64,000 nucleotides of DNA from Solitalea lacus (GTDB taxonomy: Bacteria; Bacteroidota; Bacteroidia; Sphingobacteriales; Sphingobacteriaceae). Of this stretch, positions 540 through 19,625 are shown piece after piece. The position numbers were made by a program, and so were the translations under genes. Below the pieces are notes generated by a model that saw only the letters and a list, made by a program, of their open reading frames with translations, was not told the DNA's origin and searched no databases. The DNA lies in assembly GCF_022014595.1 (NCBI RefSeq), contig NZ_CP091740.1, forward strand, positions 62,001 through 126,000. Reading direction: 5' to 3'. Every line of letters begins with the position of its first letter. Position 1 is the first letter of the stretch.

Positions 540-1729
540 TTGCCTTTTGTGGTCTTCTTATTTTTGTTCAAATCAAAATTAAATTTTACAGCTACCCCTA
601 CCGATTGCAGCTTAACTTGAGAATACCCTACACCATCTAATGGAACCTTTACAAAAGGTTGAATTCCAATTGAGGTAGTTGGACTAATTTTACGATCGTA
701 TTGCAATTGAAAATTTGCCACACTAAACCAGTGTTTGTTTTGGTTATTTACCTCATAATACTTAGGATCTGAGGGTGATGAATAAGCGTAATTAAATTTA
801 TATTCTTCTCTCAACATAATGTACGATGACAAACCTGCTCCCAGGGTTATCCTATTCTTGTTCTTATCCAACACTTTATAATGAAGGTTTAACGGAATAT
901 CCAATACACGACAATCAGCATCGATAGATTGAGGTGAGTAATTAAATGATAATGGATTAGAGGGCTTGTAATTTTCGAACCCTGTTGAATACACCATTTT
1001 AGCATAAACAGCTCCTGTACTCACACTCCATCGCTTACTTAAACTCATGGAAACCCCAATTCCAAAATCTCCACCGAAACTTGCGTCTTTAAATGAATTG
1101 ACTCCATTTAATGCAGGGGCTGCTCCAACCGAGAATGTAAAACGTCCAAAATCACTGGTTTTCTTAGCATCTTTAAAACTGCTCTGAGCAATCGAAGAAA
1201 TACTATTACTTTGCATTTCGTTACCCAAACTCATTTCTGGCTTTTTACTTTTTCCAGTATCTACCAATGCGGTTTTATTGCTTATCGAAGTTATGTTTGT
1301 AAGCTCGTTTATTTTCGAGCTATCAGTTTTCAATAAGAAAAGTTCATTTGTGCCAAGCTTAACTTGTTGCGAATTGGATACATTAAGCTCCTTATCCTCT
1401 TTCGTTGTATTTGATGCAGTGCCTCTACTAATCTGTCCTTTTCCAGGTATATTCGAACTGGCACTTTTCCCATCACCTACCTTTTGTTGTTTTACAATAC
1501 GTGGTTCCTGAAAATTATCAGGGGTAAAAAGTTTAAACAAGCCAAGTATCAAAAGCAATGAAGCAGCAATCCCCCCTGCAACGCCAAGCCAAAGCATTGT
1601 TCTTTTATTACGATCATGCTTATCCAACCGTTTCTCAAGCAGGTACCATTGCTGTTCATTGAAAACAGCAGGAGTATCTGGCTCAAGCCCTTGCTTCAAT
1701 AATTCGTCTACAGACTTTTTTTCTTTCAT
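536..1729 (-). CDS. Anti-sigma-like membrane protein with C-terminal outer-membrane beta-barrel domain
   Basis: A 397-residue protein encoded 34 bp downstream of an ECF sigma factor gene, the usual place for an anti-sigma factor. The N-terminal ~45 residues are charged and would lie in the cytoplasm. One hydrophobic helix (LWLGVAGGIAASLLLILGLF, about 47-66) follows, then a long Ser/Lys/Asn-rich linker (about 70-190), and a C-terminal beta-strand-rich domain from about 195 that resembles PorT-type outer-membrane barrels. The layout suggests one chain spanning inner membrane, periplasm and outer membrane. The family role (sigma control) is inferred from position; the barrel call rests on alternating strand patterns and the aromatic-rich C-terminus. 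Confidence 0.68.
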   Translation of the reverse strand: MKEKKSVDELLKQGLEPDTPAVFNEQQWYLLEKRLDKHDRNKRTMLWLGVAGGIAASLLLILGLFKLFTPDNFQEPRIVKQQKVGDGKSASSNIPGKGQISRGTASNTTKEDKELNVSNSQQVKLGTNELFLLKTDSSKINELTNITSISNKTALVDTGKSKKPEMSLGNEMQSNSISSIAQSSFKDAKKTSDFGRFTFSVGAAPALNGVNSFKDASFGGDFGIGVSMSLSKRWSVSTGAVYAKMVYSTGFENYKPSNPLSFNYSPQSIDADCRVLDIPLNLHYKVLDKNKNRITLGAGLSSYIMLREEYKFNYAYSSPSDPKYYEVNNQNKHWFSVANFQLQYDRKISPTTSIGIQPFVKVPLDGVGYSQVKLQSVGVAVKFNFDLNKNKKTTKGN

Positions 1730-8074: not shown

Positions 8075-8230
8075 AGAAAATAAATTTAATTAATATCCTT
8101 ATTTTCAATTATTTATAAATTTACCAAAACCAAACGGAAAGGCCAAGAGAGGAAACCAAACGTCATAGCATTAACATTTTAGTAATTTTTATTTTTTTTA
8201 CTTGCGATTTTCAGAATTAAATGTGAATAT

Positions 8231-8260
8231 TTGCAAAAATTTATAACTAATTTAGTTTAC
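8231..8260 (+). promoter_or_regulatory. Candidate promoter for the arginine operon leader
   Basis: TTG at 8231-8233 (-33-like) is followed after 19 bases by TAGTTTAC at 8253-8260, a partial match to the Bacteroidota -7 box TAnnTTTG. It lies about 100 bp before the short leader ORF. The match is weak. Confidence 0.3.
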
Positions 8261-8363: not shown

Positions 8364-8489
8364 ATGAAAAAACACTTTTTATCATACGTAACCGATATGA
8401 TAAACGCTTCGAAAGAAGTGGTTTTTTCTACGCTTATGAGCGTAGTTTTTGTTCACCCAACCCCGGTTGCATACTTCCCGCGACGCTGA
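8364..8489 (+). CDS. Candidate 41-codon leader peptide upstream of the arginine operon
   Basis: ATG at 8364 opens an ORF of 41 codons that starts MKKHFLSYVTDM and ends in two consecutive Arg codons (CGA CGC) directly before TGA. It lies 152 bp upstream of the first structural gene of the arginine operon and overlaps several RNA hairpins. Arg codons at the end of a short ORF before arginine biosynthesis genes would fit a ribosome-stalling sensor, but two Arg codons are few for a classical attenuator. No family is recognised. It could also be a chance ORF. Confidence 0.4.
   Translation: MKKHFLSYVTDMINASKEVVFSTLMSVVFVHPTPVAYFPRR
8428..8450 (+). terminator. Terminator-like hairpin inside the arginine leader
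   Basis: CTACGCT (8428-8434) and AGCGTAG (8439-8445) form a perfect 7-bp stem with a 4-base loop, followed by five T residues (8446-8450). A second small stem with a GAAA tetraloop (8405-8410 with 8415-8420) lies just upstream. The hairpin is inside the short leader ORF, so translating ribosomes would melt it. Confidence 0.55.
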
Positions 8490-8526
8490 TGCGTCCATTT
8501 TAATCTAGAACATCTACGCGATGTTC
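8482..8526 (+). promoter_or_regulatory. Paired downstream hairpins of the arginine leader
   Basis: GACGC (8482-8486) pairs with GCGTC (8491-8495) around the leader stop codon. GAACATC (8508-8514) pairs with GATGTTC (8520-8526), and its loop region holds CTACGC (8514-8519), complementary to GCGTAG (8440-8445) of the terminator-like stem. The rest of the gap 8075-8640 is AT-rich, with no other gene seen. Confidence 0.4.
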
Positions 8527-8640
8527 ATAACTCACCCAAATTTTTCTGAGCATTTAACATTAACTAAATACTAAAAGCTGATTATTGTATTCGCTTCATT
8601 TGATTTAGTTGTTTTTTGTAATCATTTCATTTTAGAAGAA

Positions 8641-9318
8641 GTGGAACTTTCTGATTTCGATATTATTGTTGCCTCAGCGCAACACGTTTCATATGCCGAG
8701 CAAATTGTTGAGGAGATGGCCGAATCGGCTAAAGCCAGAGGAACTGGTATTGCCAAGCGTTCTCCAAATTACGTTGCCGATAAGATGTGCGAAGGCAAAT
8801 CTGTAATTGCCTTACACAAAGATGGAACTTGGGCCGGTTTCTGCTACATTGAAACTTGGAGCCATGGCCAGTTTGTGGCTAACTCGGGTTTGATCGTAAA
8901 CCCTATTTTTAGAAAAGTGGGCCTGGCAAAGGCTATTAAGTACAAAATATTTGAACTTTCTCGCCAAAAATACCCGGATGCTAAAATTTTCGGATTAACA
9001 ACAGGATTGGCCGTTATGAAAATTAATTCGGAACTAGGGTATGAACCGGTAACTTATTCCGAGCTCACCACCGACGAAGAGTTTTGGAAGGGTTGTCAAA
9101 GCTGTATAAATCATGATATTTTAATGAGCAAAGGCCGTAAAAACTGCCTATGCACGGCTATGTTGTATGATCCGACAGAGAAAACTAAAGAAGAGAAACC
9201 CGAAGAACCTACAGAGCATCTTGAAAAAGTAACGCATAAAGCCAAACTTTTTGAGCGCATTGAGCGCAAATTAGGCTCATTCAAGCTTTTTCAAGCCTTC
9301 TTTTTAAATCGATTTTAA
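8641..9318 (+). CDS. GNAT acyltransferase, candidate glutamate N-acyltransferase of the arginine pathway
   Basis: A 225-residue GNAT protein with a GTG start. Visible features are RGTGIAKRSPNYVADKMCEGK near residue 36, the core WAGFCYIETWSHGQFVANSGLIV, the acyl-CoA loop region FRKVGLAKAIKYKIF near residue 97, GLTTGLAVMKINSELGY, and a Cys-rich C-terminal part GCQSCINHD...CLCTAMLYDP. Close homologues stand directly before argG in Bacteroides-type arginine clusters, so it is the best candidate for the first step (acylation of glutamate), where this operon has no classical ArgA or ArgJ. The substrate is inferred from context. The C-terminal Lys/Glu-rich tail after residue 180 is additional. Confidence 0.78.
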   Translation: MELSDFDIIVASAQHVSYAEQIVEEMAESAKARGTGIAKRSPNYVADKMCEGKSVIALHKDGTWAGFCYIETWSHGQFVANSGLIVNPIFRKVGLAKAIKYKIFELSRQKYPDAKIFGLTTGLAVMKINSELGYEPVTYSELTTDEEFWKGCQSCINHDILMSKGRKNCLCTAMLYDPTEKTKEEKPEEPTEHLEKVTHKAKLFERIERKLGSFKLFQAFFLNRF

Positions 9319-9435: not shown

Positions 9436-10623
9436 ATGAAAAAAGTAGTTTTGGCATTCAGCGGCGGCTTAGATACCTCATATTGCGCCGTGTACCTTTC
9501 AAAGGTAAAAAACATGGAAGTGCATGCCGTTACGGTTGATACCGGCGGTTTCAGTAAAGAAGAATTAGTTCAAATCGAGCAACGAGCCCTCGCCCTGGGC
9601 GCCAAAAGTTACCGATGCATTAACGAAATAGACAACTATTACGAAAGTTGCATCAAATACCTCATCTTCGGCAATATTCTTAAAAACAATACTTACCCAT
9701 TATCTGTCAGCGCTGAGCGTATTGCCCAGGCTATGGCCATAGCCAGCTATGCAAAAGAAATTGGAGCTGATGCAATTGCACATGGTTCTACCGGCGCAGG
9801 TAATGACCAGGTACGTTTTGACATGGTATTTCAAATCATGACTCCGGAGGTGGAAATTATTACCCCTATCCGTGACATGAAACTCTCACGAGAGGCAGAA
9901 ATCGAATTCCTTGCTGGACACGGAATTGTGTACAGCGCTGAAAAGGCAAAATACTCTATCAATAAAGGTATTTGGGGAACTTCTGTAGGTGGTGCCGAAA
10001 CATTGACCTCACATGGCTTCTTACCTGAAAGTGCATGGCCAACTCAAGTAACCAAGTCAGAACCTGAAAATATTACACTTCATTTCGAACAGGGTGAATT
10101 AAAAGGCATTAATGAAGATAAATTTGAGAAACCTTCTGATGCTATTTTAGCATTAACTGCCATTGCTGCTCCGTTTGGAATTGGTCGCGATATTCACGTA
10201 GGTGATACCATTATTGGCATCAAAGGCCGTGTGGGATTTGAAGCCCCGGCTCCCCTGATCATCATAAAAGCCCACCATACACTCGAAAAACATGTGCTTA
10301 CAAAATGGCAACTATACTGGAAAGACCAATTGGCGATGTTCTATGGCAACTGGCTACACGAAGGACAATTGCTTGATCCAACTATGCGTGACATAGAAGC
10401 CTTTTTACAAAGCACTCAAAAATTTGTCAGCGGAAAGGTGTTTGTTTCATTAAAACCTTACCAGTTCATGGTTACCGGAATTGAATCTGACCATGATTTG
10501 ATGAGCGCCAAATTTGGCAGCTATGGTGAAATGAACAACGCCTGGACTGGTGAAGACGTAAAAGGCTTTACCAAAATATTTGGCAACCAGGTAAGTATTT
10601 ATCATAAAGTGAATAACTTATAA
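9436..10623 (+). CDS. argG: Argininosuccinate synthase
   Basis: A 395-residue cytoplasmic ligase that joins citrulline and aspartate using ATP to give argininosuccinate. The N-terminal PP-loop FSGGLDTSYC (8-17) binds ATP, and AHGSTGAGNDQVRFD near residue 115 is the citrulline/aspartate site. YSINKGIWGTSVGGAETLT near 175 matches the shorter Bacteroidota form of the family. Length is normal. It follows the acyltransferase gene by 117 bp and precedes argC by 87 bp. Confidence 0.97.
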   Translation: MKKVVLAFSGGLDTSYCAVYLSKVKNMEVHAVTVDTGGFSKEELVQIEQRALALGAKSYRCINEIDNYYESCIKYLIFGNILKNNTYPLSVSAERIAQAMAIASYAKEIGADAIAHGSTGAGNDQVRFDMVFQIMTPEVEIITPIRDMKLSREAEIEFLAGHGIVYSAEKAKYSINKGIWGTSVGGAETLTSHGFLPESAWPTQVTKSEPENITLHFEQGELKGINEDKFEKPSDAILALTAIAAPFGIGRDIHVGDTIIGIKGRVGFEAPAPLIIIKAHHTLEKHVLTKWQLYWKDQLAMFYGNWLHEGQLLDPTMRDIEAFLQSTQKFVSGKVFVSLKPYQFMVTGIESDHDLMSAKFGSYGEMNNAWTGEDVKGFTKIFGNQVSIYHKVNNL

Positions 10624-10633
10624 GATATATGGC

Positions 10634-10686
10634 TTGAGATTTGAAAAATTCAGTCAGCTTAGGTTTATCGGCTTTTCAAATCTCAA
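10634..10686 (+). repeat. Intergenic inverted repeat between argG and argC
   Basis: TTGAGATTTGAAAA (10634-10647) and its perfect reverse complement (10673-10686) are separated by 25 bases in the 87-bp argG-argC gap. The same core (AGATTTGAA / TTCAAATCT) recurs before argH and in part before argF'. It may act as an RNA stem that stabilises or attenuates the message, or be a dispersed genomic repeat. Confidence 0.75.
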
Positions 10687-10710
10687 CCTTCATCTAAAAT
10701 CTAATTTTCA

Positions 10711-11718
10711 ATGTCTCAAATTTCAATTAAGGCAGGCATTATCGGCGGTGCGGGTTATACCGGAGGCGAGTTATTGCGCATCCTTATCAATCACCCCAAC
10801 GTTGATATTGTCTTTGTACATAGCAACAGTAACGCCGGCAACCTTATTTCAGATGTTCACACTGATTTATTAGGCGATACTGATTTAAAATTTGCATCTG
10901 AAACATCTCAGAATATTGATGTTTTATTTTTATGTGTTGGACATGGTGATGCTAAAAAATTCCTTGCAACTAACCTGTTCAATCCAAAAATTAAAATCAT
11001 TGATCTTAGTCAAGACTTCAGGTTACAGAAAGATAACGGGCACGTTTTAAGCGCAGAAGAAGGGCCCAGAACCTTTATTTATGGGTTACCAGAACTTCAA
11101 AGGGAAGAAATTAAACAAGCTCAAAACATTGCTAATCCAGGCTGTTTTGCCACCTGTATTCAACTGGCATTATTACCATTGGCAAAAAAAGGAATATTGA
11201 ACAGCGATGTTCATATTTCGGCAACAACGGGCTCTACCGGTGCTGGGCAATCATTAAGCCAAACGTCTCATTTTTCGTGGAGAAACAATAATCTTTCGGT
11301 TTATAAAGCCTTTGGTCATCAACATTTAAAAGAAATTACTCAAAGTGTAAAGCAGCTGCATAATGGCTTCAAAAAGGATATCAATTTCATTCCTTACCGA
11401 GGTGACTTTGCCAGAGGCATTATGGTTTCGGCATACACAGAGTTTGATGGTACTCAGGAAGAAGCTGAAAAACTGTACAAAGATTTCTACTCTTCTCATC
11501 CGTTTACACATGTTTCAGATAAAAATATCGATTTGAAACAAGTGGTTAACACGAACAAGTGTCTTGTTCATGTAGAAAAACACGGCAATAAGTTAATGGT
11601 ACTCAGCATCATTGATAACTTGCTAAAAGGGGCTTCAGGCCAGGCTGTTCAGAACATGAACTTAATGTTTGGTCTTGATGAAAAAGCGGGACTAAATTTG
11701 AAACCAGTTGGATTTTAA
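10711..11718 (+). CDS. argC: N-acylglutamyl-phosphate reductase
   Basis: A 335-residue NADPH-dependent reductase that converts N-acylglutamyl phosphate to N-acylglutamate semialdehyde. The nucleotide-binding loop GGAGYTGGELLRIL is at residues 12-25, and the catalytic Cys lies in NPGCFAT near residue 146. SATTGSTGAGQSLS near 170 and the His of GHQHLKEI near 207 are also conserved. It overlaps nothing if argD starts at 11759. Whether the acyl group is acetyl or succinyl is set by the pathway; see argF'. Confidence 0.96.
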   Translation: MSQISIKAGIIGGAGYTGGELLRILINHPNVDIVFVHSNSNAGNLISDVHTDLLGDTDLKFASETSQNIDVLFLCVGHGDAKKFLATNLFNPKIKIIDLSQDFRLQKDNGHVLSAEEGPRTFIYGLPELQREEIKQAQNIANPGCFATCIQLALLPLAKKGILNSDVHISATTGSTGAGQSLSQTSHFSWRNNNLSVYKAFGHQHLKEITQSVKQLHNGFKKDINFIPYRGDFARGIMVSAYTEFDGTQEEAEKLYKDFYSSHPFTHVSDKNIDLKQVVNTNKCLVHVEKHGNKLMVLSIIDNLLKGASGQAVQNMNLMFGLDEKAGLNLKPVGF

Positions 11719-11758
11719 CCTCGATGAGCGTTTGCCTCATCCCAAAAAATCTTTTAAA

Positions 11759-12901
11759 ATGAAATTATTTGATGTATATCCATTATTCCCTTTCGAATTG
11801 GTAAAAGCAGAAGGTGCTTACGTTTGGGATGAAAATGACAATAAATATTTAGATCTATATGGCGGTCATGCGGTAATTTCTATCGGTCACTCGCATCCGC
11901 ATTATGTACAACTGATTACTGAGCAGTTAAATAAAATCGGTTTTTATTCTAACTCAGTGCAAATTCCCATTCAGAAAGAGCTTGCTCAAAAATTAGGGGC
12001 GCTTACCGGTGGTTATGATGATTACAGCCTGTTTTTATGTAATTCGGGTGCCGAGGCCAATGAGAACGCACTAAAACTGGCTTCTTTCCATACTGGAAGA
12101 AAAAAGATTGTGGCATTCAGTAAATCATTCCATGGCCGTACTTCGGCTGTTGTTGCTGCAACAGATGACAAATCAATTATCGCTCCTGTAAATGAGACAA
12201 GCAATATCATCTTCGTTCCATTTAATGATGAGGATGCATTAGAAGCAGTAATGAACAATGAAATTGCCGGTGTAATTGTTGAAGGCTTGCAAGGAGTTGG
12301 AGGAGTACAAGTTCCAACTGATTCATTCTTGAAAAAAATCCGTTCACTTTGCGACAAATTTGGCGCGTTAATGATTTTAGATGAGATTCAGTCGGGGTAC
12401 GGACGTTCTGGCAAATTCTTTGCCCATCAGCATTCTGGGGTAAAAGCCGATATTATTTCCATGGCAAAGGGTATGGGAAATGGATTTCCTATTGGCGGGA
12501 TTATCATCGCTCCACATATTGAGGCTAAGCACGGTATGCTGGGTACTACTTTTGGAGGCAACCATTTAGCTTGTGCAGCAGCCATTGCAGTTTGCGATAT
12601 CATCAAACAAGAAAACCTGCAACAAAATGCTGCCGAAATTGGTGCATACTTAATAGAGGCTCTAAACAAATTTGAAGGAGTGAAAGATGTGCGTGGTTAC
12701 GGTTTAATGATTGGCTTGGAGTTGGACAATTACGCCGACGTTCGTAAGAAACTAATGACTGACCATAAAATTTTAACAGGCGTTTCTGGTAAACAAAACA
12801 CTATCCGTTTGCTACCTCCATTGAATATTACCAAAGCTCAAGCGGATGACTTCCTGAAAGCTTTTACTCAGGTAATGAATTCTTTGGCAGTTGCTCAATA
12901 G
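11759..12901 (+). CDS. argD: N-acylornithine aminotransferase
   Basis: A class-III PLP aminotransferase of 380 residues that converts N-acylglutamate semialdehyde to N-acylornithine. The PLP lysine lies in ISMAKGMGNGFPIGG, and LDEIQSGYGRSG supplies the Asp that contacts the pyridine nitrogen. GGHAVISIGHSHPHYV and NSGAEANENALKLA are also family signatures. An upstream in-frame ATG at 11708 would add 17 residues and overlap argC; the ATG at 11759 (MKLFDVYPLFPFE) matches the family start better. Confidence 0.95.
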   Translation: MKLFDVYPLFPFELVKAEGAYVWDENDNKYLDLYGGHAVISIGHSHPHYVQLITEQLNKIGFYSNSVQIPIQKELAQKLGALTGGYDDYSLFLCNSGAEANENALKLASFHTGRKKIVAFSKSFHGRTSAVVAATDDKSIIAPVNETSNIIFVPFNDEDALEAVMNNEIAGVIVEGLQGVGGVQVPTDSFLKKIRSLCDKFGALMILDEIQSGYGRSGKFFAHQHSGVKADIISMAKGMGNGFPIGGIIIAPHIEAKHGMLGTTFGGNHLACAAAIAVCDIIKQENLQQNAAEIGAYLIEALNKFEGVKDVRGYGLMIGLELDNYADVRKKLMTDHKILTGVSGKQNTIRLLPPLNITKAQADDFLKAFTQVMNSLAVAQ

Positions 12902-12979
12902 TTTTAACAAGGCAAAAGAAATAATTAATATTTTGAAAAAGCGCAAAAAGCACTAAATAAACGGACTTAGAGGCGCATA

Positions 12980-12994
12980 TCTCAAATCTCAAAA
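12980..12994 (+). repeat. Partial copy of the intergenic repeat before argF'
   Basis: TCTCAAATCTCAAAA ends directly before the argF' ATG and resembles one arm of the argG-argC inverted repeat. No second arm is seen here. Confidence 0.45.
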
Positions 12995-13960
12995 ATGAAA
13001 CACTTCACATCAATCCACGATGTTCCTAATTTGGACGCTTTGGTTAACGAAGCGCTGAAAATCAAAAAGGACCCCTTAGGCTTTGTTGATATTGGTGGTC
13101 AGAAAACACTAGGACTTGTTTTCTTGAATCCTAGTTTACGTACCCGTATGAGTACCCAAAAAGCAGCCATGAACCTGGGAATGAACACCATGGTAATTAA
13201 CATGGATAAGGAAGGTTGGCGTCTTGAAATGAATGATGATGTCATTATGGACGGGCAAACCGTTGAACATATAAAAGAAGCAGCTGCCGTTCTAGGCCAA
13301 TATTGTGACATTTTAGGGTTACGTTGTTTCCCTAACCTGAAAGATAAACATGAGGATTATAGTGAAGAGGTCTTGAATAAGTTTATCAAATACAGTGGAG
13401 TGCCTGTTGTTTCGTTAGAAAGTGCTACTCGTCATCCTTTGCAAAGTTTTGCCGACATTATTACTATTAAAGAGCATGCGACCAAGCCTAAACCTAAAGT
13501 GGTTTTAACCTGGGCTCCGCATATAAAACCATTGCCTCAAGCAGTTTCCAATTCATTTTCAGAGTGGATGGTTAAAGCTCAGGAAATGGATATGGTTGAT
13601 TTCGTAATTACACATCCTGAAGATTATGAATTAGCCGAAGAGTTCACCCTGGGCGCAACAATAACTACAAACCAAAACGAAGCATTAAGTGGGGCTGATT
13701 TCGTTTATGTAAAAAACTGGTCTAGCTATAATCAATATGGCGAAATACTAACCGATGGGAATGGATGGATGATGGATAACGCAAAACTTAAGTTAACTGA
13801 TAACGCTAAAGTGATGCATTGCTTACCGGTTCGCCGAGGTTTAGAATTAGGTAATGATATTTTGGACGGACAAAACTCACTGGTCGTCCATGAAGCGGCA
13901 AACCGGGTTTATTCTGCTCAAACCGTATTAAAAAAATTGATCGAAGGTAATAAACTATAA
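12995..13960 (+). CDS. argF': N-acylornithine carbamoyltransferase, predicted N-succinylornithine type
   Basis: A 321-residue transcarbamylase that carbamoylates an N-acylornithine instead of free ornithine. The carbamoyl-phosphate loop is NPSLRTRMST (45-54), and MHCLPVRRG near residue 272 is the C-terminal signature. The residue that separates acetylornithine enzymes (Glu92 in Xanthomonas) from succinylornithine enzymes (Pro90 in Bacteroides fragilis) is Val90 here, in DGQTVEHI. Published swaps of that Glu to Val, Ser, Ala or Pro produced succinylornithine activity, so the succinyl route is predicted. The gene sits between argD and argB. Confidence 0.93.
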   Translation: MKHFTSIHDVPNLDALVNEALKIKKDPLGFVDIGGQKTLGLVFLNPSLRTRMSTQKAAMNLGMNTMVINMDKEGWRLEMNDDVIMDGQTVEHIKEAAAVLGQYCDILGLRCFPNLKDKHEDYSEEVLNKFIKYSGVPVVSLESATRHPLQSFADIITIKEHATKPKPKVVLTWAPHIKPLPQAVSNSFSEWMVKAQEMDMVDFVITHPEDYELAEEFTLGATITTNQNEALSGADFVYVKNWSSYNQYGEILTDGNGWMMDNAKLKLTDNAKVMHCLPVRRGLELGNDILDGQNSLVVHEAANRVYSAQTVLKKLIEGNKL

Positions 13961-14031
13961 AAAAGAGTAGTAATAAGTGAAGAATGAGCAAATATAAATC
14001 CGCATTTTACACTTTTATGAACTAATCACAT

Positions 14032-14817
14032 ATGCAGCAAACTGTTAACATCATAAAAGTAGGCGGAAACATCATTGATAACGAAACGAAATTAACTTCT
14101 TTTCTAAATGACTTTGCACACCTTAAAGGTTTAAAAGTATTGATCCACGGTGGTGGAAAGGTTGCTACAGAAATAAGTAAGGGCTTAGGCGTTGAGGCTA
14201 AAATGGTTGACGGCCGCAGAATTACCGATAGTGAAACGCTGAAAATCGTAACCATGGTATATGCAGGTTTGATTAATAAGAACCTAGTTGCCAAGCTTCA
14301 GTCAAAGGGTTGCAATGCCATAGGTTTAACAGGAGCTGATGCTAATATTATTCCTGCTCATAAGCGTCCGGTTAAGGAAATTGATTATGGGTTTGTGGGA
14401 GATGTTGAAGAAGACAAAATGGACGGCCAAGTACTTTCAATATTGTTAGAAAGTGGCCTTGCCCCTATTTTGGCTCCTTTAACCCACGATCAGCAAGGTA
14501 ATATATTAAATACCAATGCCGATACTATTGCCTCAACTGTAGCAGTTTCACTGGCCAAAAACTTTAATGTAAACCTTATTTATTGTTTTGAGAAAGAGGG
14601 GGTGTTAGATGCTGAGGAAAAAGTAATTCCTCAGATATCAAAGCCTTATTTTGAAGAACTGAAAGAAAAAGGAGTTGTTGTTGCCGGGATGATTCCAAAA
14701 TTAGATAACGCCTTTGCTGCAATTAATAAAGGTGTAAAATCTGTATACATTATGCACGCCGATGGCCTGCCAAAACTCATTAACGAGTCAGAAAATACGG
14801 GGACTCAAATATCATAA
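14032..14817 (+). CDS. argB: N-acylglutamate kinase
   Basis: A 261-residue amino-acid kinase that phosphorylates N-acylglutamate. IIKVGGNIID (7-16) is the phosphate-binding Lys-Gly-Gly loop and LIHGGGKVATE (38-48) the second glycine loop. GLTGADANII near 98 and NTNADTIAST near 162 complete the substrate and ATP sites. It lacks the N-terminal helix of arginine-inhibited hexameric kinases, so feedback inhibition is less likely (inference). The IS605 remnant lies directly downstream. Confidence 0.95.
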   Translation: MQQTVNIIKVGGNIIDNETKLTSFLNDFAHLKGLKVLIHGGGKVATEISKGLGVEAKMVDGRRITDSETLKIVTMVYAGLINKNLVAKLQSKGCNAIGLTGADANIIPAHKRPVKEIDYGFVGDVEEDKMDGQVLSILLESGLAPILAPLTHDQQGNILNTNADTIASTVAVSLAKNFNVNLIYCFEKEGVLDAEEKVIPQISKPYFEELKEKGVVVAGMIPKLDNAFAAINKGVKSVYIMHADGLPKLINESENTGTQIS

Positions 14818-14878
14818 TAAACTTGGCGCCACCAACGCTAAACCATTATGAAGAAATATTTATAAAAGGAGCGTAAAA

Positions 14879-15282
14879 CCCATCAGTCTTTAGCCGATGG
14901 GAGGGATGTAAGGGACAAACGCTAACCTTGTGAAAGGATGTACTGACGAACTGTTTCAGGAGAAGCCTTTAGAATATAAAGCAAGCTGGAATGATAAACG
15001 AATAGTTAAAATCAATCGCTTCTATCCATCGTCAAAGACTTGCAACGAATGTGGATATATCCATCAGGACTTAACTCTTTCTGAAAGAATATGGACTTGT
15101 CCAAATGGGCATACTTTAGACAGGGACATAAATGCAAGTAAAAATATCCTTGAAGAAGGATTAAGAATAATCGGGGCGGAACTCTCCGATAACACGGGCA
15201 GAGCCTTAAATAAGACTTCTGAAAAGAAGCACAAGGCGTTGAAGTCCGAAGCCCATTTGTCTTTAGCAAATGGGTAGTTCAC
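14879..15282 (+). mobile_element. Internally deleted IS200/IS605-family remnant
   Basis: About 404 bp between argB and proC are bounded by two 23-base imperfect palindromes of the same design, CCCAT-N2-GTCTTTAGC-N2-ATGGG, at 14879-14901 and 15252-15274. The right one is followed by TAGTTCAC, typical of the right end of IS605/IS1341-type elements. Between them lies only the 3' third of a tnpB gene. No tnpA is present. The exact outer edges are uncertain; the left edge could lie up to ~50 bp further out. Confidence 0.8.
14930..15277 (+). pseudogene. tnpB: Truncated TnpB (IS605 OrfB) C-terminal fragment
   Basis: A 115-codon fragment (GTG start by default) matching the C-terminus of TnpB nucleases. 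Seen are LEYKASWNDKRIVKINRFYP, the zinc-ribbon cysteines SSKTCNECG and the degenerate second half WTCPNGH, and the RuvC-III block LDRDINASKNILEEGL with its Asp. The RuvC-I and RuvC-II parts (about two thirds of the usual ~370-400 residues) are missing, so it cannot be an active nuclease. The 3' end overlaps the right-end hairpin region where omega RNA is encoded in this family. Confidence 0.88.
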
Positions 15283-15303
15283 AGCTTCATACACTTTATC
15301 ATT

Positions 15304-16122
15304 ATGTCAACTAAAAACCTCAACATTGCCATTTTAGGCGGTGGAAACATTGGATTGGCCTTAGCCAAAGGACTGATAAAATCAGGCACTTATCAACCTG
15401 AGCAAATTACCATTACCCGCCGTAATTTAGGTGCATTACAACCTTTTTCCATTCAGGGTTTCAAAATCACCAATAACAATAACGAAGCGATAAAAAACGC
15501 CGATATAGTTGTATTAGGAGTTCTGCCCCAGCAACTAAATGGATTACTGGCCGAAGTCAAGGGATCTGTAAATGAATCACAGCTGATTATTTCGTTAGTA
15601 ACCGGTGTTTCCATTCAGGACATTAAAGATAATTTAGGGAAAGCGCCGGCAGTAGTTCGTGCAATGCCCAATACGGCAATATCGGTTGGCGAATCAATGA
15701 CCTGTATTGCATTTGATGGTGTTAGCATTGAACGTAAGGACCTAGTGAACAATATTTTCAACACAGTTGGTATCACCCAAGAAATCAAAGAAGAGTTAAT
15801 GACCTCTGCTACAGCTTTATGCGCATGCGGCATAGCTTTCTTTTTACGTTCTATTCGTGCTGCTATGCAAGGCGGGGTTGAAATAGGTTTTCATTCAGAA
15901 GAAGCTTTAAACATGGCGGTGCAAACGGCTAAAGGAGCTGCTGCATTGCTAGCTCGTGAAGGCGCTCACCCTGAACATGAAATTGATAAAGTAACCTCTC
16001 CACGTGGTTGTACCATCGCCGGATTAAATGAAATGGAGCATCAAGGCTTTAGTTCAGCATTAATAAAAGGTATTTGTACTTCTGCTATAAAAGCCGGTGG
16101 ATTGTATTCGAAGGATTCTTAG
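15304..16122 (+). CDS. proC: Pyrroline-5-carboxylate reductase
   Basis: A 272-residue NAD(P)H-dependent reductase making proline from pyrroline-5-carboxylate. The Rossmann loop is ILGGGNIGLALAKGL (10-24), and VVRAMPNTAISVGES near 117 and the C-terminal VTSPRGCTIAGLNEMEHQGF are family signatures. ProC is often part of the arginine cluster in this phylum, which links proline and arginine synthesis. It lies just after the IS605 remnant, so its expression may depend on transcription through that insertion. Confidence 0.94.
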   Translation: MSTKNLNIAILGGGNIGLALAKGLIKSGTYQPEQITITRRNLGALQPFSIQGFKITNNNNEAIKNADIVVLGVLPQQLNGLLAEVKGSVNESQLIISLVTGVSIQDIKDNLGKAPAVVRAMPNTAISVGESMTCIAFDGVSIERKDLVNNIFNTVGITQEIKEELMTSATALCACGIAFFLRSIRAAMQGGVEIGFHSEEALNMAVQTAKGAAALLAREGAHPEHEIDKVTSPRGCTIAGLNEMEHQGFSSALIKGICTSAIKAGGLYSKDS

Positions 16123-16219
16123 TTTTGCAATCGCCTTTGCGGGCAACAATTAACCGTTTAAAGAATCTATTCGAAGCTTAGCATTCTTCGACATGAAGAA
16201 AGCTGTAAAGAATTAAAGA

Positions 16220-17281
16220 ATGACTTATCAACTTAAACACGATGCAATAGAGTTGCTGAAAAAGCTGATTTCTATTCAATCGTTTAGTAAGGAAGAAGAT
16301 CAAACAGGAGATGTAATTGAAGCATTTTTGAAAGAACGCAGCGTTTTTACATTCCGTAAGATCCATAATATCTGGGCTTTTAATAAACATTATGATCCTA
16401 AAAAGCCAACCGTGCTGTTAAACTCGCACCACGATACTGTAAAGCCTAATAAAGGATATACAAAGGATCCATTTAGCCCAATTGTTGAAGATGGTAAATT
16501 ATACGGTTTAGGCAGTAATGATGCCGGCGGATGTTTAGTATCATTAATGGCTACCTTCCTTTATTTCCATGAAAAGGAAGATTTAAAGTATAACATTGCT
16601 TTTGCAGCATCGGCAGAAGAAGAAATATCAGGCTATAATGGCATTGAATTAATCGTTCCTGAACTAGGTCCGGTTGAATTTGCTATTGTTGGTGAACCCA
16701 CACAAATGCATTTAGCCATTGCCGAAAAGGGTTTAATGGTATGCGACTGTGTGGCCTACGGAAGATCAGGACATGCTGCACGTGAGGAGGGTGACAATGC
16801 TATTTACAAAGCCATTAAAGACATTCAATGGCTCAGCACGTACCAGTTCCCAAAGGTATCTCCGTTTATGGGGCCTATAAAAATGTCCGTTACCATAATT
16901 AATGCAGGCTCTCAGCATAATGTTGTTCCGGATCGCTGTGAATTTACTGTTGATATACGGGTAACAGAGCAATATACTCATGAAGAACTATTGGAAACTG
17001 TTAGGGCTAACGTAAGCAGTGAAGTAACGCCTCGTTCAATGCGAATGCGCTCATCATCAATTGCAGAAACTCACCCCATCGTACAAGCTGGATTAACCTT
17101 AGGAAGAACCACCTATGGCTCTCCTACTACTTCTGACCAGGCATTGATTCCTGTGCCGTCGTTAAAGCTTGGTCCCGGTGATTCTGCTCGTTCGCACACC
17201 GCTGACGAATACATTTATTTGAACGAAATAGAAGAAGGGATTGACCTGTATATAAAAATATTAGAGCAAGTAGTATGTTAG
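16220..17281 (+). CDS. argE: M20 family deacylase of the arginine pathway (ArgE-type)
   Basis: A 353-residue zinc hydrolase expected to remove the acyl group from N-acylcitrulline, the product of ArgF'. Metal ligands of the M20 family are visible: LLNSHHDTV (His, Asp), GLGSNDAGGC (bridging Asp), AASAEEEISG (catalytic Glu pair), GEPTQM and the late LGPGDSARSHTADE His. A dimerisation domain lies around 170-280 (GRSGHAAREEGDNA). In the acylated-citrulline route this step gives citrulline for ArgG. Substrate is inferred from context. Confidence 0.9.
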   Translation: MTYQLKHDAIELLKKLISIQSFSKEEDQTGDVIEAFLKERSVFTFRKIHNIWAFNKHYDPKKPTVLLNSHHDTVKPNKGYTKDPFSPIVEDGKLYGLGSNDAGGCLVSLMATFLYFHEKEDLKYNIAFAASAEEEISGYNGIELIVPELGPVEFAIVGEPTQMHLAIAEKGLMVCDCVAYGRSGHAAREEGDNAIYKAIKDIQWLSTYQFPKVSPFMGPIKMSVTIINAGSQHNVVPDRCEFTVDIRVTEQYTHEELLETVRANVSSEVTPRSMRMRSSSIAETHPIVQAGLTLGRTTYGSPTTSDQALIPVPSLKLGPGDSARSHTADEYIYLNEIEEGIDLYIKILEQVVC

Positions 17282-17391
17282 ATTAGAGAGTACGAATTAC
17301 AAGTTTAATAACGCTGATTCCTGTATATTAATTAAATTAGAATTATAGCTAGCTCGTTATTTTAAACCCGTATCCCCATCATTAATTCAAC

Positions 17392-18210
17392 ATGCTAAAA
17401 GAAAAATACTTGCACGGTTTCTCAAAAACGGAACAAGAGCGATTAATGCGTCAGGCTCGTTTTTTGGAAAACTATATCTATCACGATATTGATTTATCGT
17501 CTGTAGAAAACCTGTTGGAAGTGGGTAGCGGAGTCGGTGCTCAAAGTGAAATTTTACTAAGAAGGTTTCCTAGAGCACAACTAACATGTATCGATTTTTC
17601 GGAAACACAAATTGCTACCGCTCAACAATATTTAGGGCATAATGCAGTTGCAAAGGGCCGGTATGAAATAAAACAAATGGATGCAACCGATATGGATTTT
17701 GCATCAAATGAAAAATTTGACGGAGCATTTTTGTGCTGGGTATTGGAACATATTCCTAACCCGGTAAAAGTACTTTCAGAGATAAGAAGGGTTCTTAAGC
17801 CAGGTAGTGTGGTGTACTTGACGGAAGTATTGAACTCGAGTTTTTTTCTCGACCCTTACTCACCTAGTACTTGGCAATATTGGATGCGTTATAACGATTT
17901 GCAGTACGACATGGGTGGAGATCCGTTTATTGGGGCCAAGCTTGGCAATATGCTGCAAAGTGTGGGTTATACGAATATTCAAACAATGGTTAAAACCATT
18001 CACCTGGATAATCGTCAGCCAGGCAAAAGGGCTGAAATGATTAATTTCTGGGCTGATTTATTAATGAGTGGCATGCCAAATTTAATTGAGTCAGGCTATG
18101 TAGAACCTGAAATTGCTGAAAAAGTAAAAGAGGAAATGAAAACTGTTGCCAAAAACCCTAACGCAGTATTTTTTTATTCGTTTGTGCAGGCAAAAGCACA
18201 TACTTCGTGA
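17392..18210 (+). CDS. Class I SAM-dependent methyltransferase
   Basis: A 272-residue methyltransferase with motif I LLEVGSGVGAQSE (about 41-53), the acidic SAM ribose ligand in LTCIDFSETQI, motif II-like GAFLCWVLEHIPNP and motif III VLKPGSVVYLTEV. The C-terminal half is unusual and may define the substrate. It sits inside the arginine operon, 110 bp after argE and 83 bp before argH. No arginine-pathway methylation is known, so its job is open; small-molecule methylation is the likeliest class. Confidence 0.88.
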   Translation: MLKEKYLHGFSKTEQERLMRQARFLENYIYHDIDLSSVENLLEVGSGVGAQSEILLRRFPRAQLTCIDFSETQIATAQQYLGHNAVAKGRYEIKQMDATDMDFASNEKFDGAFLCWVLEHIPNPVKVLSEIRRVLKPGSVVYLTEVLNSSFFLDPYSPSTWQYWMRYNDLQYDMGGDPFIGAKLGNMLQSVGYTNIQTMVKTIHLDNRQPGKRAEMINFWADLLMSGMPNLIESGYVEPEIAEKVKEEMKTVAKNPNAVFFYSFVQAKAHTS

Positions 18211-18230
18211 ATTTGAGATTGAAACCATGG

Positions 18231-18278
18231 AGATTTGAAAATTATCCATTGCTCAATGGGTATAATCAATTCAAATCT
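18231..18278 (+). repeat. Intergenic inverted repeat before argH
   Basis: AGATTTGAA (18231-18239) and TTCAAATCT (18270-18278) form a 9-bp inverted repeat with a 30-base spacer, sharing its core with the argG-argC repeat. Confidence 0.6.
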
Positions 18279-18293
18279 TTCTAATACTAAAAG

Positions 18294-19625
18294 ATGAAAC
18301 TCTGGGCTAAAAACACCAACGTACAAAAAGAAGTAGAACAGTTTACAGTAGGTAACGATCGGGAGTTAGATATGTATCTGGCGCCATTTGATGTTTTGGG
18401 CTCTATTGCACATATCACCATGCTAGAAAGCATAGGTTTATTGAGCAAAGAGGACCTTTCAACCTTAAAAAAAGAACTGGTAAAAATATATAGTGAAATT
18501 GAACATGGAGAGTTTAAAATAGAAGAAGGAATTGAAGACGTTCACTCACAGGTTGAATATTTGTTAACTCAACGCATTGGAGATGCCGGCAAAAAGATTC
18601 ATAGTGGACGGTCGCGTAACGATCAGGTTCTGGTAGACATCAAACAATACTTGCGTTATGAATTAATGCAGGTTGTTTCCCATGTCAAGCAGTTGTTTGA
18701 AACTTTGCAGCGATTAAGCGAAGAACACAAAGAGAAGCTAATGCCAGGCTATACGCATCTGCAAATAGCTATGCCTTCATCTTTTGGGCTCTGGTTTGGA
18801 GCTTATGCCGAGTCATTGGTTGATGACATGGAGCTGCTCCTCGCAGCTTACAAAGTCGCCAATAAAAATCCATTAGGCTCTGCTGCCGGTTACGGTTCAT
18901 CTTTCCCGCTTAACCGTACCATGACCACTGAGCTTTTGGGTTTTGGTGCACTGAATCATAACGTCGTATATGCACAGATGACAAGAGGCAAATCGGAAAA
19001 AATTGTTTCAATGGCATTGGCCTCTGTTGCTACAACCCTGTCGAAATTTGCTTACGATGTTTGTTTATACATCAGCCAGAACTTTGGATTTATTAGTTTT
19101 CCGGATCATTTAACAACCGGTTCAAGCATTATGCCGCACAAAAAGAATCCGGATGTATTTGAGTTGATCAGGGCAAAATGCAATAAGCTGCAAGGGCTTC
19201 CCAATGACTTAACTTTACTCACCAATAACCTGCCATCCGGATACTTCCGTGATATGCAAATTACCAAAGCCCTTATAATCCCGGCTTTTGAAGAACTAAC
19301 CGACTGCCTGCAAATTTGCAACTACATGTTGCAGCATATCACTTGCAATGATAATATCACTCGTGATGAAAAGTATAAGTATATTTTCAGTGTTGAAGTG
19401 GTAAATAACCTGGTATTGCAAGGAGTGCCTTTCCGCGAAGCCTATAAAAACGTAGGTTTGGCTATTGAGGACGGTAATTTTGAGGTGCCGGAAAGTATCA
19501 ATCATACCCACGAAGGCAGTATCGGCAATTTGTGCACTGCTCAAATTAAGGCTGCTATGGAAAAGGTGATCTCAGGATTTGAGTTCGAAAAGGTAGAAAT
19601 GGCTGTTGAGAAGCTTTTAGCATAA
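18294..19625 (+). CDS. argH: Argininosuccinate lyase
   Basis: A 443-residue lyase that splits argininosuccinate to arginine and fumarate, the last step of the pathway. The superfamily signature GSSIMPHKKNPDVFE is near residue 277, HSGRSRNDQVLVD near 103, and the His of PGYTHLQIAMPS near 153 is the catalytic acid-base region. Length is near the usual 450-460. It closes the operon and is followed by a strong bidirectional terminator. Confidence 0.96.
   Translation: MKLWAKNTNVQKEVEQFTVGNDRELDMYLAPFDVLGSIAHITMLESIGLLSKEDLSTLKKELVKIYSEIEHGEFKIEEGIEDVHSQVEYLLTQRIGDAGKKIHSGRSRNDQVLVDIKQYLRYELMQVVSHVKQLFETLQRLSEEHKEKLMPGYTHLQIAMPSSFGLWFGAYAESLVDDMELLLAAYKVANKNPLGSAAGYGSSFPLNRTMTTELLGFGALNHNVVYAQMTRGKSEKIVSMALASVATTLSKFAYDVCLYISQNFGFISFPDHLTTGSSIMPHKKNPDVFELIRAKCNKLQGLPNDLTLLTNNLPSGYFRDMQITKALIIPAFEELTDCLQICNYMLQHITCNDNITRDEKYKYIFSVEVVNNLVLQGVPFREAYKNVGLAIEDGNFEVPESINHTHEGSIGNLCTAQIKAAMEKVISGFEFEKVEMAVEKLLA

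Follow-up and report, generated by a model that had tools for sequence, protein, structure and literature searches.

A leader ORF ending in Arg-Arg-stop and its covarying hairpins ahead of the Solitalea lacus arg operon: a putative ribosome-mediated attenuator

The window, by which we mean the whole 64-kb stretch of DNA analysed here, carries the following arginine-biosynthesis genes:

8641-9318, plus strand: first gene of the operon, encoding a GNAT-fold acetyltransferase, likely N-acetylglutamate synthase; its GTG start aligns with the starts of its relatives
9436-19625, plus strand: arg operon, assigned by NCBIfam matches
Gene starts in the operon, plus strand, by NCBIfam: argG 9436, argC 10711, argD 11708, N-acetylornithine carbamoyltransferase 12995, argB 14032, proC 15304, ArgE/DapE-family deacylase 16220, argH 18294

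The product of 8641-9318 had no NCBIfam match, and its match to Pfam GNAT was sub-threshold (E 0.011). The best PDB match of its AlphaFold model was N-acetylglutamate synthase. Judged from this predicted structure, the gene is a likely candidate for the N-acetylglutamate synthase of Bacteroidota. A cysteine cluster in the same product (C152, C155, C169 and C171) is kept in all relatives. By eye, we also noted a methyltransferase-like ORF (17392-18210) within the operon, between the ArgE-family deacylase gene and argH. The ArgR DNA-binding domain (PF01316) was absent from the genome itself, while 9 of 14 control genomes gave a match.

Upstream of the first gene lies a short ORF that the initial annotation had overlooked and that encloses the hairpin at 8428-8445. 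The features of this region are:

8202-8233, plus strand: candidate promoter of the Bacteroidota type, TTG-N21-AATATTTG, nearly identical in four same-genus genomes
8364-8489, plus strand: leader ORF of 41 codons, peptide MKKHFLSYVTDMINASKEVVFSTLMSVVFVHPTPVAYFPRR*, final codons CGA CGC TGA (Arg Arg stop)
8367-8427, plus strand: P1, in which the A-tract of codons 2-4 (8367-8373) pairs with GTTTTTT (8421-8427), enclosing hairpins 8379-8403 and 8405-8420
8428-8445 with U-tract 8446-8450, plus strand: P4 hairpin CTACGCTTATGAGCGTAG, 7 bp, followed by five T; inside the ORF, with compensatory changes across families
8481-8486, plus strand: Arg codon pair CGA CGC, by sequence the only Arg codons in this leader, directly before the stop codon
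8482-8495, plus strand: stop-codon hairpin GACGC-TGAT-GCGTC, with the stop codon in its loop; invariant in four same-genus genomes
8508-8526, plus strand: downstream hairpin GAACATC-TACGC-GATGTTC, 7 bp, containing a second CTACGC
8562-8617, plus strand: candidate intrinsic terminator, AACTAAAT (8562-8569) pairing with ATTTAGTT (8603-8610), then GTTTTTT

The ATG of the leader ORF stands in an A-rich context. The 126 bases of the ORF were nearly fixed across the four available genomes of the genus: only 1-2 of 21 fourfold sites differed in the leader, compared with 34-52 of 69-79 in the next gene. The promoter is kept as well, but its distance to the ATG ranges from 77 to 162 nt in these genomes and the 5' UTR ahead of the ATG varies. 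This indicates that the conserved unit begins exactly at the ATG. Used as a query against 399 genomes of the family, the leader peptide matched nothing beyond its four copies in the genus, owing to its fast divergence.

The leader as a whole folded 3.9 sd better than shuffled sequences. Between 8150 and 9000 we observed five terminator-like sites against 0.6 expected, and three of the five lie within the ORF or at its end (8405-8420, 8428-8445 and 8482-8495). The P4 stem consists of CTACGCT/AGCGTAG (7 bp) closed by a TATG loop; its motif, CTACGC-N2..8-GCGTAG, occurs a single time in the 64 kb and never in 100 shuffles.

A covariance model was built from 14 Chitinophagaceae-type leaders, none of them from the family of the window. 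With this model, 8364-8504 was the sole significant match in the window and in the whole genome (E 8e-9), scoring 38.7 bits compared with 23.1 bits when base pairs were left out. The model aligns hairpin 8428-8445 with the P4 of other leaders (CTGTTCTGCCAGGAGCAG followed by T7 and CTATTCCAGCAGGAATAG followed by T5, next to CTACGCTTATGAGCGTAG followed by T5 in the window). At pairs 3, 4 and 5 of P4 both sides have changed between families. Such compensatory changes, found across several families, bear out the terminator-like hairpin described in the initial annotation, in which GCGTAG (8440-8445) pairs with CTACGC (8428-8433) ahead of TTTTT (8446-8450). In 21 leaders P4 ends 82-91 nt past the AUG and 38-44 nt ahead of the end of the ORF. 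The equivalent of P1, an A-tract at the first codons pairing with GGxUUUUU just 5' of P4, is kept and covaries in Chitinophagaceae-type leaders. The stop-codon hairpin is longer in Anseongella-type leaders (6 bp, AGACGC/GCGTCT). For the 8508-8526 stem, 41 of 42 cells were paired in an alignment of six leaders, with compensatory changes at several of the seven pairs and a constant loop, TACG[CT]. When the model was run against 395 genomes of the class, the strong new matches (L116-L119 and L121) were all situated immediately 5' of the same operon gene and encoded leaders of the Arg-Arg or Arg-Pro type; among the weak matches (E above 3e-4), no such leader preceded an arg gene. By these comparisons of sequence, the ORF, its position, its Arg ending and the covarying hairpins are established features of the region.

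The initial annotation had proposed a switch, in which GCGUAG at 8440-8445 pairs either with 8428-8433 to form a terminator or with CTACGC at 8514-8519 to form an antiterminator. The second CTACGC is present and complementary, and the long-range duplex with the hairpin arm in the window (-8.8 kcal/mol) is more stable than in 96% of shuffles. Across the four same-genus genomes, however, its energy falls from -8.8 to -6.1 kcal/mol, reaching chance level in G002, and no equivalent above shuffles was detected in 17 other leaders having P4. In the window the long-range pairing is ~ 3 kcal/mol worse than the best fold and has an equilibrium probability of 0.002. Positions 8514-8519 make up the last stem base and the five-base loop of hairpin 8508-8526 and so are not free RNA; the UACG(C/U) loop of this covarying hairpin persists in Anseongella-type leaders, whose fold shows no hairpin of the 8428-8445 type. 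The two alternatives had been called mutually exclusive, which is true of the long-range pairing with respect to the local hairpins, but the two local hairpins are compatible with each other. Moreover, the polymerase would already be past a terminator at 8450 before 8514-8519 could act as antiterminator. We therefore rejected the switch as described, which we consider scarcely tenable, and retained the terminator-like hairpin together with the view that the leader is regulatory in character. Since the hairpin is enclosed by an ORF that ends in Arg-Arg-stop, ribosome-mediated attenuation explains it better than the switch does.

Searches against Rfam, including the arginine riboswitch and T-box families, gave no match at the gathering threshold, and relaxing E up to 5 gave chance matches only. 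This agrees with the original remark that the leader matches no known arginine riboswitch. A direct arginine riboswitch, to which the ORF would be incidental, could account for the very strong conservation of silent sites within the genus. Besides lacking an Rfam match, such a riboswitch is hard to reconcile with a conserved unit that starts precisely at the ATG; moreover, across families structure and sequence diverge, while the length, the position and the Arg ending of the ORF persist. We regard a riboswitch as very improbable.

To compare leaders more widely, related loci were anchored on the first operon gene in Sphingobacteriaceae, Chitinophagaceae and Flavobacteriaceae. Arg-ended leader ORFs were found upstream of this gene in 96 of about 110 loci. 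Because a C-terminal Arg pattern was used to select the ORFs, the universality of this ending is partly by construction; the ending had first come to notice in a list made without filtering. Most of the ORFs have 40-46 codons, and the gap to the first operon gene is about 85-160 nt. The exceptions include L101, whose leader ends RSSRSWA, and L021, L025, L066, L074, L083, L094, L099 and L108, which gave no such ORF. Leaders of type 1 (that of the window and Chitinophagaceae) end Arg-Arg-stop, those of type 2 (most other Sphingobacteriaceae) end RRPFMPR(V/A/T)-stop, and the Flavobacteriaceae type ends SRSSRSRA-stop. Of the 320 C-terminal Arg codons of the 96 leaders, 164 are CGA, a strong preference compared with a CGA share of 14% among Arg codons of the long ORFs in the window; this is a tally rather than a test because the leaders are related to one another. 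In type 2, CGA is the only codon used for the leading Arg of the fixed RR pair.

Also in type 2, Arg at -7 is kept through CGA, CGG, AGG and AGA, and Pro at -3 through all four of its codons (54 of 58 leaders, with a variable third base). Fixed residues encoded by varying codons indicate that selection acts on the amino acid or the peptide. Such selection argues for an attenuator, as does the retention of a short leader ORF of similar kind and position in 96 of about 110 loci. The same residues could also belong to an arrest peptide, that is, a nascent chain that, through its Arg-Arg (or Pro-Arg-X) end, detects free arginine or arrests the ribosome at the stop codon, so that the stalled ribosome controls the downstream RNA. 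TnaC and SpeFL are arrest peptides of this kind. Conservation near the leader end extends to residues other than Arg (an aromatic residue at -5 and Pro or Val at -3) despite varying codons, and Arg is placed right at the stop codon, nearer to it than the control codons of trp or his leaders are. In addition, C outnumbers G downstream of 88 of the 96 leaders, a C-rich, G-poor composition resembling that of a Rho site; the resemblance is only suggestive because the 5' UTR also has an excess of C over G. The ORFs were, however, picked in part by their Arg ending, which makes their conservation partly a product of construction; the motifs differ among lineages, and RNA pairing could equally constrain these codons. 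A biosynthetic operon would also need its off-state at high arginine, the reverse of tna. On balance we find an arrest peptide rather unlikely.

Attenuation of the arg operon through a translated leader peptide that responds to arginine is, in our view, a reasonably probable function of the region. Transcription would start near 8240, and a ribosome would translate the 41-codon ORF (8364-8489). At P4 and its U-tract (8428-8450) the polymerase would pause, or stop if no ribosome follows, and the pause would bring polymerase and ribosome together into the second half of the leader. Under a shortage of charged Arg-tRNA, the ribosome would stall at CGA CGC (8481-8486), covering roughly 8463-8497 as judged from usual ribosome footprint positions. 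It would thereby block the stop-codon hairpin, and the polymerase would read through into the operon. When arginine is plentiful, the ribosome would finish and leave, the stop-codon and 8508-8526 hairpins would form, and transcription would end upstream of 8641, with the A+T-rich hairpin 8562-8617 as the most likely site. Weighing against the attenuator, a ribosome stalled at CGA and one at the stop codon differ in position by only 6 nt, so that the read-out would have to depend on how long the ribosome stays in place.

The polymerase transcribes P4 ahead of the Arg codons, and P4 therefore cannot be an arginine-controlled terminator for the same polymerase. We infer that P4 is probably a polymerase pause or translation checkpoint and that arginine-controlled transcription end is more likely to occur at hairpin 8562-8617. 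Alternatively, P4 might act mainly as a true terminator that aborts untranslated leaders, in which case the leader would report on translation in general instead of arginine. P4 with its U-tract fits the terminator pattern, its distances from the AUG and from the ORF end are fixed in the 21 leaders, and in most Chitinophagaceae leaders a CGT Arg codon stands just ahead of it. Yet no Arg codon precedes P4 in the leader of the window, and the Arg-Arg ending would be left unexplained. We judge this role of P4 to be improbable.

The termination read-out of the proposed attenuator would fall to the region after the ORF. The arms of the A+T-rich candidate at 8562-8617 are the same in three of four same-genus genomes and uncertain in the fourth. 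At the matching place, Daejeonella-type arg leaders carry clear, strong tandem terminators after the ORF. Tandem terminator-like hairpins (AAAGACT..AGTCTTTTTT and TCCG..CGGATTTTTT) were found in the interval between leader and first gene in L072, L073, L075, L077 and L084; they directly precede the first arg gene and are complete in L075, L077 and L084. Chitinophagaceae leaders showed no obvious terminator after the ORF. Inspection by eye gave no convincing alternative pairing that would exclude the terminator at 8562-8617, the candidate of the initial annotation having failed. By eye, GUAGUUUUUGUU (8443-8454) could form 9 of 11 pairs with AACAUUAACUA, which lies ahead of the terminator, but this pairing was dropped as weak, and a 23-nt complementarity of the 5' UTR with a terminator arm was dropped since, by eye, it is not kept in the same-genus genomes.

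The same genome contains two further leaders before amino acid operons:

L138, oriented 1162-1233, reverse strand: His-rich leader preceding hisG, peptide MITKKHIALHHRTHHHGHHHHCA-stop with the His-rich stretch HHRTHHHGHHHH
L141, 1260-1310: WW leader preceding trpE, peptide MNKINSNKFAWWRCNN-stop, then the strong terminator AAGCTTGTCGCACTGCGGCAAGCTTTTTTT

The trp leader also has a perfect region 2/region 3 complement (GCGACAAG/CTTGTCGC). Classic attenuation thus appears to be in use elsewhere in this genome. An arg leader working in the same way would be expected to hold ribosomes at CGA CGC whenever Arg-tRNA runs short.

A literature search, largely without subscription papers, found no description of a leader peptide for arginine biosynthesis in Bacteroidota, and we do not claim priority. 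It is possible, though doubtful, that the leaders form an undescribed arginine-sensing class of Bacteroidota, in which an ORF-internal polymerase pause or terminator checkpoint, joined to a stall precisely at the stop codon caused by the nascent peptide or the Arg codons, would take the place of ArgR in genomes that lack it. The results suggest a way in which much of one phylum may regulate arginine synthesis in the absence of ArgR, and they define an RNA and peptide family missing from both Rfam and Pfam. They also make a putative polymerase-pause hairpin, covarying and internal to an ORF, directly testable.

The arg leader shares several features with attenuators of the E. coli trp and his type: a short ORF precedes a biosynthetic operon, the last part of this ORF contains codons for the amino acid produced, there are hairpins, and a terminator candidate stands ahead of the first gene. 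Unlike these attenuators, it has Arg rather than Trp or His codons, which abut the stop codon, a stop codon in a hairpin loop and a covarying terminator-like hairpin inside the ORF, and no antiterminator was recognised. For Flavobacterium psychrophilum, of the same phylum, part of a published account infers leader-peptide attenuation upstream of amino acid operons; that part names no operon and describes no arginine leader (PMC9723704). In Salmonella orf34/speF, two consecutive leader Arg codons slow the ribosome at low arginine and alter downstream folding (PMC6386406). That leader, to which we saw no sequence relation, differs in that it controls polyamine synthesis via Rho and RNase G and has its Arg codons away from the stop codon (PMC6386406). 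The leader peptide rbfL of S. aureus likewise senses arginine limitation via Arg codons, two in number and one of them the rare AGG; it differs in blocking translation of a biofilm regulator, which it does by covering the ribosome-binding site of the next gene, without attenuator hairpins (PMC13009471).
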